Assembly (NCBI RefSeq): GCF_019740355.2
Contig: NZ_CP091819.1
Coordinates: 2,852,001 to 2,916,000, forward strand
Source of the DNA: Paracrocinitomix mangrovi
GTDB taxonomy: Bacteria; Bacteroidota; Bacteroidia; Flavobacteriales_D; Crocinitomicaceae
Direction of reading: 5' to 3'
Length of the DNA: 64,000 nt
The translations under genes and the position numbers were made by a program. Below, piece by piece: positions 3,016 through 50,398 of this stretch. Position 1 is the stretch's first letter. Each line of letters opens with the position of its first letter. Below the pieces are notes generated by a model. It was not told where the DNA came from. It saw only the letters and a program-made list of their open reading frames with translations, and did no database searches.

Positions 3016-3476
3016 TACATTTTATAAATATAACGACTGATAAAAAAGGTAGCCAATAAGAACAGAGAAAATATAATTGCCGGCATAACAATTGATTGAC
3101 CCAAATTTTTGTAAATCACGTTTTCAGGATTTTTTGGATCAACAAGAATTTCAATTTTATCACCTACTGCTATTTGTGCACTATTTTTTACTGCAGGTTC
3201 GTTCATTTTAACTACATATTTTGCATCATCTAGATTAAACTGCAAAGTGGGATATGATTGCTCACTTTCTCTATGAACATTTAAAGCTGGATCACTTGAT
3301 TCATCAGTAGGAAACATATCATCTTCCAGTTTGTATTCAACGGCAATACATTCAGATTGAATTGTTATTCCTTTGGTATATAATTGAGCCGAATTAATTA
3401 ATGGCCAGGCAAAAAAGTAAAAACCAATTGCGAAAACTGATAGAGGTATGAGGTAGTAAGCAATCTTGTTCATCAA
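3015..3476 (-). CDS. DUF3592-like membrane protein
   Basis: This 153-residue protein has one transmembrane helix at each end (about residues 7-28 and 128-149) and a periplasmic-type beta domain between them. The middle contains the VGDKIEILVDPKNPE stretch characteristic of DUF3592 proteins, a family of unknown role. The gene overlaps the MmcQ-like gene upstream by 4 bases and the hslR gene downstream by 1 base, indicating a translationally coupled trio. The function is not known. Confidence 0.75.
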   Translation of the reverse strand: MMNKIAYYLIPLSVFAIGFYFFAWPLINSAQLYTKGITIQSECIAVEYKLEDDMFPTDESSDPALNVHRESEQSYPTLQFNLDDAKYVVKMNEPAVKNSAQIAVGDKIEILVDPKNPENVIYKNLGQSIVMPAIIFSLFLLATFFISRYIYKM

Positions 3477-3829
3477 TTCATTCCCTCCAACTCTTTCTGT
3501 AATTTTTTGGTAAGCGAAGCCACAATCAAATCATATGAATGATCCGTAAGTTCATAAACCATTTGATCAGCTACATCATCATTTACGTAGACAGAATTCC
3601 ACAATTGTTTATTCATGTGATAACCCGGCTTAATGGCATTGTATTGCTCTCTTAATTCAATGGCCCTATCCGGATCGCATTTTAAGTTGATATAGGTGAA
3701 ATCCTCAATACCGCACAAGGCAAACATCTTACCCATTACTTTAAACACAAGCACATCCGGTCCAAAAGGAGTTTCTTCAGTGATGCCCTTCTTTTGTAAA
3801 CAATATTCTCTGAATTCTTCTATGTTCAT
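3473..3829 (-). CDS. MmcQ/YjbR-family protein
   Basis: The 118-residue product is a full-length MmcQ/YjbR-family protein with a CyaY-like fold. It shows the family's N-terminal FREYCLQKKGITEETPFG and a central KVMGKMFAL. Near the C-terminus it has the PGYHMNKQLWNSVYV strand-helix pattern. Members are annotated as DNA-binding proteins, but their cellular role is not established. It is the first gene of the overlapping trio with the DUF3592 and HslR genes. It is divergent from the lipoprotein gene starting at 3888, with only 58 bases between them for both promoters. Confidence 0.88.
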   Translation of the reverse strand: MNIEEFREYCLQKKGITEETPFGPDVLVFKVMGKMFALCGIEDFTYINLKCDPDRAIELREQYNAIKPGYHMNKQLWNSVYVNDDVADQMVYELTDHSYDLIVASLTKKLQKELEGMN

Positions 3830-45759: not shown

Positions 45760-46620
45760 ATGAAAAAGCTTATTCTACTTTTTATTCTATTAATTTCCAT
45801 TAATTCATTTAGTCAAGTTTTTGATACTCTTTTGCCAAATGCAGGAGGTTATTGGGGAATGAAATTTTGGGTATATGACGGCTGGTCTTTAAGTGGCAAG
45901 ATATATTCTAATGGAAGCTATGAAATTTATAATACTGAATTAGACGTAGACGGAAATACATGGAATTATGCAAATATCAATGGAACTTCAGGTTTGATTA
46001 GAAGTGATTCAGGGAAGGTGATTTTTAGAAATCATTATGGTCCAAATTGGTTGTTAGATTCGGATTATCAAGATACCCTAGAACATGTTTTGTATGATTT
46101 CAATATGCTAGTGGATGATACTGCCTATTTTGATCAGGGATGGCCAATAACAGTTGAAAGCATTGGCACTGCTAACGTACTGGGAGTAACTAAAAATGCT
46201 TGGTTTTTAAGTAACAATGATACTATTGTTCAAGGTTTGGGTAGTATGCAAGGTTTAATGAGGCCTTTCAAATCAACTTTTGAATCCGGTCAAATTATGT
46301 GCTCTTTTATAGGAACTTTTATTGACACTGTAAACCAGGACACAGTTACGCTAACTTATGACAATCCATCTACTTGTGAAACACTTGATTTACCAAACTT
46401 GGAAGAATCAATATCTATTAAATACTTGCCTGCTTTAGCTACTCTCAGTGTGCAAAATGCTGCCAATTTAACGGCTAAATTATATGGTATAGATGGCAAA
46501 TTAATAGGGAGTTTTTTAATCCAAAATGCTAACTATAATTATTCCATGGATAATTTTAATTCAGGCATCTACATCCTCCAAATTGGTGATAGCTACAGCC
46601 AACAGTTTGTGAAATATTAA
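45760..46620 (+). CDS. T9SS-sorted secreted protein, first of a paralogous pair
   Basis: This 286-residue protein has a signal peptide (MKKLILLFILLISINSFSQ). Its beta-rich domain of ~180 residues carries family-like motifs shared with its neighbour (LPNAGGYWGMK, LYDFNMLVDDTAYF, NVLGVTKNA, VQGLGSMQG). The C-terminal sorting domain of ~85 residues has LYGIDGKLIGSF and SGIYILQIGDSYSQQFVKY. It is exported by T9SS. The passenger function is unknown. The sorting-domain DNA is nearly identical to that of the next gene (see the repeat entries). Confidence 0.85.
   Translation: MKKLILLFILLISINSFSQVFDTLLPNAGGYWGMKFWVYDGWSLSGKIYSNGSYEIYNTELDVDGNTWNYANINGTSGLIRSDSGKVIFRNHYGPNWLLDSDYQDTLEHVLYDFNMLVDDTAYFDQGWPITVESIGTANVLGVTKNAWFLSNNDTIVQGLGSMQGLMRPFKSTFESGQIMCSFIGTFIDTVNQDTVTLTYDNPSTCETLDLPNLEESISIKYLPALATLSVQNAANLTAKLYGIDGKLIGSFLIQNANYNYSMDNFNSGIYILQIGDSYSQQFVKY
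46347..46614 (+). repeat. Sorting-domain repeat copy A (96-97% identical to 47273-47540)
   Basis: This 268-base block encodes the C-terminal module of the first paralogue. By eye it differs from copy B at 9 positions, with no insertions or deletions. Sequence similarity falls sharply outside the block, although the two proteins are homologous throughout. Confidence 0.9.
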
Positions 46621-46685
46621 TTCGCTAAACGGAAGATATTCAACGTGTTAAAAAATTTCGGATATTAAACATAAAGCCAAATCAT

Positions 46686-47546
46686 ATGAAAAAGTTGCTC
46701 ATAATAATTTTTTCACTTTTCTCATTTCTGAGTTTAGCTCAAAACGACATTTGGTTTCCCAACAAAGGAGGTGTTTGGTCAATGAAAACCTCCTATGGAT
46801 ATCCAGATAGTTTTTGGGGCGAATACAGTGTTGAACTTTCTGATTCTGCCTTTATTTTCCATAACGACACCAGCTGGTATTACTGTGATTATGGAGGGAT
46901 ATATATAGATTCTGGTCGTGTGTTTTTCAAAGCAATTTGGGGAATTCAAGGAGGACTTAATGTTTTTGTTTCTCCTCCTGGACCATCTGATACTATTACT
47001 AAAAAATTGTATGATTTTAATTTAAATGTGGGTGACACAGCATATATTGGGACATATGGGACTCACATTGTTGGCTCAATAGACACCACCAATATACTTG
47101 GAGTTCCTAGAAAAACACTCCATCTGTTTAATGGATCAAATGAACACGACACATGGATTGAAGGTTTAGGAAGTTTACACGGATTCTTTTTCCCATGGGC
47201 GCATTTATTTGAGGCCAGTTGTGATTTATGTTTTTTTACTGGGAATTTCACAGATTCTCTTGGAAATGACTATACGCTAACTTATGACAATCCATCTACT
47301 TGTGAAACACTTGATTTACCAAAGTTGGAAGAATCAATATCTATTAAATACTTGCCTGCTTTAGCTGCTCTCAGTGTGCAAAATGCTGCCAATTTAAAGG
47401 CTAAATTATATGGTATTGACGGCAAATTAATAGGGAGTTTTTTAATCCAAAATGCTAACTATAATTATCCAATGGATAATTTTAATTCAGGTATCTACAT
47501 CCTCCAAATTGGTGATAGCTACAGCCAAAAGTTTGTGAAAATCTGA
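46686..47546 (+). CDS. T9SS-sorted secreted protein, second of the pair
   Basis: The 286-residue paralogue of the previous protein has a signal peptide (MKKLLIIIFSLFSFLSLAQ). The passenger (WFPNKGGVWSMKTSY, LYDFNLNVGDTAYI, NILGVPRKT, WIEGLGSLHG) is similar in order but clearly diverged. The C-terminal sorting domain is almost identical to that of copy A. The pair probably arose by tandem duplication, with the sorting-domain part later homogenised. It is exported by T9SS; the function is unknown. Confidence 0.85.
   Translation: MKKLLIIIFSLFSFLSLAQNDIWFPNKGGVWSMKTSYGYPDSFWGEYSVELSDSAFIFHNDTSWYYCDYGGIYIDSGRVFFKAIWGIQGGLNVFVSPPGPSDTITKKLYDFNLNVGDTAYIGTYGTHIVGSIDTTNILGVPRKTLHLFNGSNEHDTWIEGLGSLHGFFFPWAHLFEASCDLCFFTGNFTDSLGNDYTLTYDNPSTCETLDLPKLEESISIKYLPALAALSVQNAANLKAKLYGIDGKLIGSFLIQNANYNYPMDNFNSGIYILQIGDSYSQKFVKI
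47273..47540 (+). repeat. Sorting-domain repeat copy B
   Basis: The 268-base block matches 46347-46614 at all but 9 positions by eye. It encodes TLTYDNPSTCETLDLP through SYSQKFVK. It is the second member of the tandem repeat. Confidence 0.9.
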
Positions 47547-47557
47547 TAAAATACCTT

Positions 47558-50398
47558 TTACAAAACGAGTAATTTTAACCTTAAATTTTTGGAAGAATTG
47601 GTGACAACGTCAATGAAATATATTCCTGATGACAGTTGAAGTTCAAAATAATTGGTATTGTTAATGTTGTCCTCTCTTAATATTAAGGTTCCTAGAGTAT
47701 TCAAAACTTCTATTCGATTTATTTTTTGAAAATCTACCAGTTCTACAACAAAGTTTCCAAAAGTTGGATTTGGGAATACTTTAACCTGATATTGATTTAT
47801 TTCATTTTCTCCGAGTCCTTGAAAAGCTATACATTCAGAGGTATCAACACATCCTTCATAGTATAAAACTACAGCATAATTACCGTTTTGTATAGGTAAA
47901 TAAAATTGATCAGTTGCACCGGATAGAACTGTGCTATCCTTACATTCTATCCATTGATAGGAATTTGCAATAAAATTTGCCATTAAGGTATCTTCGATAA
48001 TATCTACAGCTGTATCGATACTATGCAAAACCAGATTGATATTTATAATACTGTCACATCCGGCGGTATTAGTTATTGTATCTTGATAAAATCCACTTGT
48101 AGAAACAGAATAATTACCAGATGGTAAATCGAAATTATCGGCGCAAATGGTCGTATCAATATAGCTTTCTGACTGCGTTAAGATATCCAATGTTATTTCT
48201 AATAAACTATCACAGCCATATATATTAGTAAGAGTATCTTCATAATTACCACTTGTAAAATAAGTTTCATCACCAGAAGGCACCGTAAAATGATTACACG
48301 CCGTTTCTGAAATTGTTGTGACTTGATGTGGACTTATTACAACGTCAACAGTAATGATACTATCACAGCCAGACGAATTTGGAATTGTATCCTGGTAGAC
48401 ACCACTAAAAAAGTAAGTTTCATCACCAGAAGGCACGGTATATGAATAGCAAGCTATAGAACTGATATTTGAGTATGAATTTGTAATGTTTAAATTAACA
48501 GTTATTAAACTATCACAACCGTTTGACCCAATTAACGTGTCAGTATAGGTTCCACTTGAAAAATATGTTTCGTCACCAGAAGGAACTGTATAAGAACTAC
48601 AATTGGTTATATTTAAAATTGATGTATTGACTGAGTTAACTGCAATATTTATTGGGCCTACTAGTAATTGTGGTTCTCCGCAAACCCCAGTTGAACTCAG
48701 ATAAAGTGTCATAGAATCTATGGGGGTTATCCAAATTGTATCAGATTCACTTTTTTGGATAACGACAGCATTAGTGTCTGAATCCAATAGTAACCATGAA
48801 TCTGAGTCATTTAAATTTCCATGAATAATTATACTCACACTATCACCTGAACAAGCTGAAAAATTTGGTACATCAATAGAGTCTATATTACTAGTTGAGA
48901 AAATACCCGTGCAGTTATAAATATTTATAAGGTGTATGCTGGCGTTATTATTAGAAAAATTACCCGGTAAAATTTCTGAAATCAAAGGAGACGGATTGGC
49001 ATCTAAAAATTTATTAAAATCACCAGCAATTAAAAGACCGCTAGAATCTATTGGCACAATTACTTCCCCAAAAGAGGAATGATCGCTGTAATAAGCATTT
49101 ACCCAATTGAAATGACCACTTGTATCCAAATTTAGAAGGTATGTGTCATGATGAAGTAGTTGATTTGCGTCTGCGTTTAAAATATGAGTGTTCATTGAAT
49201 CCGGATCAAAATCTAGATATCCAGAAAATGCTCCGGTAACTATAATATTGCTATTTACAATCTCAATATCCATTGCTATATCACCTAATTCATAAATGCT
49301 AAAGTTGCCAGAATCTGAGCCAAAACCATGTAGCCATTTTGATTGCCCATTTACATTCATTTTATGAATATAAAAATCCCAAGATCCATGAAAACTACTA
49401 GTTAAAGTATCAACACCATCAAATACTTCTACGTTTTGGTCGATATATTTTCCAATAGCGTAGATATTTTCAGAAGAATCAATGGCAACCTTCATTCCAT
49501 TATTCGCTCCTCCATATGCACAATTTCCCCAAATAGTATTTCCCGCTGAATCAATTTTTAAAGTTAAGGAGTTTTCACCTTCACTTAAAATCCATTGGGT
49601 CGTCAAATCGGGGTTAATATCAATAGAGTCATTAAACCAACCTGTCACAAAAATATTAGAGTTATGGTCTACCAAAACCCCTTCAAATCCATCATCTTCA
49701 CTAAACCCATCATAGCTTTTTGCCCAAACAAAGTTTCCAGAGTCATTTAATTTTAAGATGAACGGGTCTTCTTCAAATACTGAAGTCATATTACTTACAC
49801 CAATACCTGGATCAAAGTCTACTGTATTCCAATACTGTCCTACTAAATAAATATCATTCGTAAGACTAATTGATATATCTAGTGTCTTTTCAAATACACC
49901 TAGACTGCCAAAGTTTCTTGCCCAAATTAAATTTCCATCTGTGTCAAATTTTAAAATAAAGGTATTAGGCGGATCGTTTTGATTACTCCCAGCTGTCATT
50001 AAAACTTGGCCTATTCCAGGATCAAAATCAACCGTCCCGTAGAAGGCTCCGTATATAATTACTTCATCATTTTGATTAATTTCTAGACCATTACTTGATT
50101 CATTATAAATACTGCCAAAAGTCTTTACCCAAAGAAAATTACCAAGAGGATCCAATTTTAATAAAAAAGCATCATGAAATCCATTTGAAATAACGTTGAA
50201 AGTGTTTGGACCAGGATCAAAATCAGAGTTTCCAGAGAATCTTCCAGATATATATATGTTTCCTTGACTATCAACATCTACACCTCCAATTCTATCATCA
50301 CTTTGATTGCTTCCAATAGCTTTTGCCCAATTAGTGTTTTGAGAAAAAATCGTGAGCTGAGTAAGATTGAAGACAAATAAGAATAATAAACGCTTCAT
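47558..50398 (-). CDS. Large T9SS-sorted repeat protein with SBBP-like and VPSGDETYF repeats
   Basis: This 946-residue protein has a signal peptide (MKRLLFLFVFNLTQLTIFSQ). About six beta-propeller-like repeats (residues ~20-500) each contain 'G-N-I-Y-I-S-G-x-F' and an 'F-D-P-G' turn and resemble SBBP-type repeats. Four tandem modules of ~42-51 residues (about 590-790) follow, three with the core VPSGDETYF and CDS. The end (about 865-946) is a type A sorting domain (VFPNPTFGNF ... GIYFIDV). It is likely a long cell-surface or secreted adhesin or scaffold. Confidence 0.85.
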   Translation of the reverse strand: MKRLLFLFVFNLTQLTIFSQNTNWAKAIGSNQSDDRIGGVDVDSQGNIYISGRFSGNSDFDPGPNTFNVISNGFHDAFLLKLDPLGNFLWVKTFGSIYNESSNGLEINQNDEVIIYGAFYGTVDFDPGIGQVLMTAGSNQNDPPNTFILKFDTDGNLIWARNFGSLGVFEKTLDISISLTNDIYLVGQYWNTVDFDPGIGVSNMTSVFEEDPFILKLNDSGNFVWAKSYDGFSEDDGFEGVLVDHNSNIFVTGWFNDSIDINPDLTTQWILSEGENSLTLKIDSAGNTIWGNCAYGGANNGMKVAIDSSENIYAIGKYIDQNVEVFDGVDTLTSSFHGSWDFYIHKMNVNGQSKWLHGFGSDSGNFSIYELGDIAMDIEIVNSNIIVTGAFSGYLDFDPDSMNTHILNADANQLLHHDTYLLNLDTSGHFNWVNAYYSDHSSFGEVIVPIDSSGLLIAGDFNKFLDANPSPLISEILPGNFSNNNASIHLINIYNCTGIFSTSNIDSIDVPNFSACSGDSVSIIIHGNLNDSDSWLLLDSDTNAVVIQKSESDTIWITPIDSMTLYLSSTGVCGEPQLLVGPINIAVNSVNTSILNITNCSSYTVPSGDETYFSSGTYTDTLIGSNGCDSLITVNLNITNSYSNISSIACYSYTVPSGDETYFFSGVYQDTIPNSSGCDSIITVDVVISPHQVTTISETACNHFTVPSGDETYFTSGNYEDTLTNIYGCDSLLEITLDILTQSESYIDTTICADNFDLPSGNYSVSTSGFYQDTITNTAGCDSIININLVLHSIDTAVDIIEDTLMANFIANSYQWIECKDSTVLSGATDQFYLPIQNGNYAVVLYYEGCVDTSECIAFQGLGENEINQYQVKVFPNPTFGNFVVELVDFQKINRIEVLNTLGTLILREDNINNTNYFELQLSSGIYFIDVVTNSSKNLRLKLLVL
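48027..48622 (-). repeat. Four tandem protein modules (about 42-51 residues each)
   Basis: The protein modules read in order TVPSGDETYFSSG, TVPSGDETYFFSG, TVPSGDETYFTSG, then a diverged DLPSGNYSVSTSG, each followed by a D-T-x-x-N/S-x-x-G-C-D-S segment. At DNA level the core TTTCATCACCAGAAGG recurs 150-153 bases apart (near 48264, 48417 and 48567). They are in-frame coding repeats, not a CRISPR array. Confidence 0.85.

Follow-up and report, generated by a model that had tools for sequence, protein, structure and literature searches.

Genes A and B and their common 3' block

The window is the whole 64,000-nucleotide stretch of Paracrocinitomix mangrovi DNA that was analysed. Two genes lie in tandem on its + strand, here called A and B, each encoding a protein with a hydrophobic N-terminus (translation inspected), an upstream part referred to as the passenger and a C-terminal tail that resembles a T9SS sorting domain. 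The features are as follows:

45760..46620, + strand: gene A, secreted-type protein with a sorting-domain-like C-terminal tail (286 aa)
46347..46614, + strand: block copy 1, end of gene A (repeat search and genome DNA search)
46357..46386, + strand: codons of YDNPSTCETL in A, the linker motif at the block 5' edge (invariant in A, B and locus L048)
46444..46614, + strand: TIGR04183 match, residues 229-285 of gene A (23.1 bits)
46686..47546, + strand: gene B, tandem paralogue of gene A (286 aa; passengers 36% identical)
47273..47540, + strand: block copy 2, end of gene B (repeat search and genome DNA search)
47283..47312, + strand: codons of YDNPSTCETL in B (invariant in A, B and L048)
47376..47540, + strand: TIGR04183 match, residues 231-285 of gene B (25.2 bits)

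The assignment of both tails to the T9SS type A sorting domains is marginal. Their TIGR04183 scores lie marginally over the curated cut-off of 23 bits, and with 21.1 bits for A and 20.7 bits for B they stay under the PF18962 gathering score of 27. T9SS type A sorting domains typically begin with a YPNP-like motif. In the alignment this motif is present in many homologues and is absent from A and B themselves, where the columns read KYLPA, and from their closest homologue. The tails are the putative export signals. The passenger gave no Pfam match of note, and its AlphaFold2 model, calculated from a three-row alignment, was poor (mean pLDDT 38.3). A long T9SS gene on the - strand at 47558-50398 contains a 99-nt unit repeated four times within 48044-48601; the copies are spaced by 150-156 bp and are 64-71% identical to the reference copy.

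The earlier note had described two blocks with sharp edges, differing at 9 of 268 bases, at the ends of A and B, and both the repeat search (97% identity, spacing 926) and the list of mismatches confirmed this. Several mismatches change the protein, as had been stated: five codons are replaced (Asn/Lys, Thr/Ala, Thr/Lys, Ser/Pro by two base changes, and Gln/Lys) and three carry silent mismatches. The 5' edge of the block lies three codons upstream of the motif YDNPSTCETL, and the 3' edge 3 bases short of the stop codon of gene A. Measured along the codon alignment in windows of 60 bases, the identity between A and B is 0.29-0.65 before the 5' edge, 0.84 in the window straddling it and 0.92-0.98 past it, with 0.78 in the final 18-base window; there is no gradual fall of identity along the genes. 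The repeat search and the comparison of the 3' flanks found no near-identity left upstream of the block or past the stop codon. In the genome (one contig, 4,365,762 bases) a DNA search with the block at E <= 0.001 returned only these two copies, which rules out chance as their origin; at that threshold the genome has no further copy of this tail. Likewise, A and B were the only matches in a protein search of the own genome with gene A.

The silent sites follow the same boundary. According to the NG86 method, dN is 0.71 and dS 2.20 between the passengers (186 codons), and dN is 0.033 and dS 0.095 between the tails (90 codons). The claim that the upstream parts are strongly diverged thus holds for both protein (36% identity) and silent sites (dS ~2.2, saturated), and the silent divergence of the passengers is not equally low. 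At fourfold sites, A and B are identical in 19 of 20 cases in the last 75 codons and in 15 of 33 upstream (Fisher p 0.0003), the upstream set still containing ~15 codons of the block. Since the silent sites are reset too, it is highly improbable that selection alone, exerted by an export machine that keeps tails alike while passengers diverge, made the A and B tails so similar, even though fold and function are common to such tails. The dN/dS ratio is ~0.32 for the passenger, where dS is saturated, and ~0.35 for the tail, so that passengers and tails both look constrained. On these dS values and ratios the passengers are old rather than fast-evolving and the tails were reset, probably recently. 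The proposal that passengers evolve fast under the tail is not borne out. Hypervariable passengers were considered as a candidate and rejected, because a ratio of ~0.32 (with saturated dS) gives no sign of them.

Tails and passengers compared with homologues

The closest homologue found belongs to G025, a genome from a different genus within the same family. Locus L048 of a Crocinitomicaceae metagenome assembly, the single relative that the contig scan yielded, carries this gene as well. The passengers of A and B are 36% identical to each other and 38% (A) and 42% (B) identical to the G025 passenger. The tails of A and B are 93% identical to each other, whereas they share only 26% (A) and 27% (B) with the G025 tail, which makes constraint a poor explanation for their likeness and speaks further against selection alone. 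It also fails to support the description of the tail as a fixed export tag, given that the tail is less conserved towards the closest homologue than the passenger. In this homologue the tail already stands at the same place. Among 29 homologues, which were selected by a passenger profile and are therefore biased to conserved passengers, some of them being cut short or near copies, the tail is less A-like than the passenger in 25 and less B-like in all 29.

Trees of 27 rows were compared for tail and passenger. A and B are joined at 99/96 in the tail tree, which carries a long-branch warning at A/B, and in 0 of 200 bootstrap trees for the passenger. A further test of the passenger joined them in 2 of 1000 bootstrap trees, while the AU test does not reject them as sisters (p 0.26). 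The low bootstrap counts would also be expected if A and B arose by a recent duplication of the whole gene and recombination with a diverged homologue of a different strain or species then replaced the passenger of one of them, leaving the tail untouched. Such a replacement predicts the same sharp 5' edge. We consider it unlikely, because it requires two events, because the near-identity that a recent duplication of whole genes should have left upstream of the block and past the stop codon is absent, and because it fits poorly to a second pair of genes in the same genome, named L059 here, in which the passengers are unrelated and the proteins are 420 and 230 aa long.

Similar tails elsewhere in the genome and in relatives

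At least 150 TIGR04183 tails are encoded in the own genome (the best 150 of 255 candidates were scored, and pair tests within this genome may therefore miss weak tails). A profile built in this analysis recognised 155 tails in the stretches around TIGR04183 loci. The all-versus-all comparison of these 155 tails (minimum 78% identity and 90 bp) gave two tail-to-tail DNA matches, a number that is again difficult to reconcile with selection alone, as the other tails of the genome are too different. Both, A/B being the first, join neighbouring genes on the same strand, whose ends are separated by 926 and 745 bp. Of the 11,935 possible pairs of tails, 46 are on the same strand and no more than 12 kb apart, and in 4 the distance is no more than 1 kb; with so few close pairs, two neighbours among two matches are not due to chance. 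Other repeats were also noticed in the genome. A family of 118-677 bp, 81-97% alike, occupies 3527876-3531464 and 3550224-3550554 near T9SS genes and outside the tail-bearing ORFs recognised in this analysis, and a 150-bp repeat (94% identical) lies at 2596179-2596328 and 4301560-4301709, just 3' of two distant T9SS genes.

The second match is the L059 pair, two tandem T9SS genes on the same strand (1727-2989 and 3042-3734 of the locus; own genome 399557 and 400302). Their tails (399372-399553 and 400117-400298) are 93% identical over 182 bp, and between their passengers no similarity was detectable (local score 33). Such a combination is what one would expect if the duplicated tail of a neighbour had been joined to a passenger rather than having overwritten an existing tail. 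For A and B this is very unlikely, as their passengers are related along their length, have the linker in common and belong to a family whose closest homologue was already tailed at the same place. Also in the L059 pair a partial similarity of the tails persists directly upstream of the block, which fits two older tails.

Looking at 98 usable adjacent pairs, we distinguished 53 with related passengers (score >= 150) and 41 with unrelated passengers (score < 80). Of all 75-codon windows the tail was the best-matching one in 19 of the 53 related pairs, where 7.5 are expected by position (sd 2.5), and fourfold identity was greater in the tail than in the passenger in 35 of the 53 (p 0.027); both statistics include non-independent pairs from the same array, and the window count, which also speaks for selection alone, could be inflated by constraint on the tail. 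The bias towards the tail over the adjacent pairs with related passengers is modest. Among the 41 unrelated pairs, only the L059 pair exceeded a tail identity of 0.6 (0.84 over 75 codons).

We surveyed tandem pairs in fetched stretches of eight genomes (same-strand tails within 12 kb, n=172). G007 (129 tail matches) and G066 (best 150 of 208 candidates scored) were covered by their tandem tail clusters only, and G003, G012, G022, G054 and G087 by one cluster each; the choice of G066 was not blind, since three adjacent tails in it resembled that of B. Tail DNA identity reached at least 0.75 in 34 of the 172 pairs, namely 2 in the own genome (G000), 2 in G007 and 30 in G066, and in no pair from the single clusters of the other five genomes. 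All listed tail pairs with at least 82.3% identity are on the same strand and within 10 kb, for G007 and G066 with respect to the clusters only. In 13 of the 34 pairs the best single change point fell at most 100 aa from the stop codon and identity was higher on its tail side; in the other 21 it fell elsewhere. Across this point identity rises from 0.55 to 0.95 in G007 39191/40849, from 0.57 to 0.93 in G066 102087/104457 and from 0.50 to 0.92 in G000 399557/400302, the L059 pair. As between A and B, silent divergence is much lower in the tail than in the passenger of G007 39191/40849 (dS 0.14 and 2.10) and of G007 31049/34403 (0.02 and 1.08), in the latter with the best single change point far upstream.

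For 12 chosen pairs the tracts of at least 88% identity and at least 50 bp were listed. A tract reaches the gene end in 7 of the 12 pairs, and none was found in 3. Six of the 7 gene-end tracts end at most 7 bases from the final base of the stop codon, and the one of G066 102087/104457 extends 57 bases beyond the stop codon. Additional N-terminal tracts are present in G007 39191/40849 (77 bp), G007 31049/34403 (66 bp) and G066 62417/63893 (565 bp). In the last pair (G066:C3, L215) the N-terminal part is 88% alike over these 565 bp and the tail 93% alike over 223 bp, with a diverged middle. G066 154466/156418 has a 476-bp tract ending 97 bases before the gene end, and G066 507115/510913 a tract of 1623 bp (96%) within the passenger, next to a diverged tail (0.74). 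Tracts inside passengers and at N-termini point to conversion at several places that is not aimed at tails, of which, from these alignments, the tail appears to be one frequent target. The earlier suggestion of gene conversion or reuse limited to the tail can accordingly be kept for the sharp, tail-limited reset between A and B, which recurs once more in this genome and is also seen in two relatives, and has to be given up as a general rule in view of the G066 507115/510913 passenger tract.

Proposed gene conversion between tandem paralogues

We propose that the likeness of the A and B tails is the result of gene conversion between old tandem T9SS paralogues where DNA homology remained, and assign to this reading a probability of roughly 0.8. 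A and B would be old tandem paralogues in a family of secreted proteins, and a non-reciprocal homologous recombination, in which RecA may have taken part, would fairly recently have copied the 3' end from one gene to the other, in either direction. The tract would start beside the linker motif YDNPSTCETL and stop where the coding sequence ends, and the 9 differences would have accumulated between the copies afterwards. The linker may have served as the anchor for the conversion. The limitation of the tract to the 3' end is probably due to the fact that only there was enough DNA homology left for pairing. Since each neighbouring T9SS gene bears the same kind of tail, such neighbours would be exposed to conversion in general.

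The closest known pattern, so far as the available portions of the sources extend, is that of babA/babB and homA/homB of Helicobacter pylori, whose 3' segment is described as being under concerted evolution (PMC3960876). As in A and B, these are paralogous genes for surface proteins with 3' segments alike within a strain and the rest diverged, and for bab the conversion was ascribed to a probably RecA-dependent intragenomic recombination (PMC3960876). In contrast to A and B, the bab and hom products are outer-membrane adhesins encoded at defined loci and not T9SS substrates, and the available part of this account does not address export tails or unrelated partners (PMC3960876). The gingipains of Porphyromonas gingivalis are T9SS cargo with modular common domains, for which recombination and gene conversion were proposed as a source of diversity; unlike for A and B, the portion of this source at hand concerns adhesin domains and alleles between strains rather than tandem copying of tails only (PMC5266723). 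The accessible text of PMC5808330 deals with recombination between strains. In Rhs genes homologous recombination likewise decouples the evolution of two parts of one gene, yet their layout, according to the section consulted, is opposite to that of A and B, with a conserved core and variable, laterally gained C-terminal tips (PMC2935791). In the literature searched, which leaves most subscription journals outside its coverage, no study describing conversion of T9SS tails was found.

A wider and rather doubtful extension is that T9SS tails form a local recombination network in which tails are copied between neighbours even with unrelated passengers. The tag would then follow the chromosomal neighbourhood and not the cargo, and new cargo could gain a working tag from a neighbour. 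The mechanism as such is ordinary. Genomes like this one encode 150 or more T9SS tails, many of them in tandem, and the copying of tails would explain in a simple and testable way how export tags remain usable or come to be carried by unrelated cargo. If neighbours overwrite the tails of each other, trees and families based on tails would mislead, and tag and cargo would be remixed by ordinary recombination.
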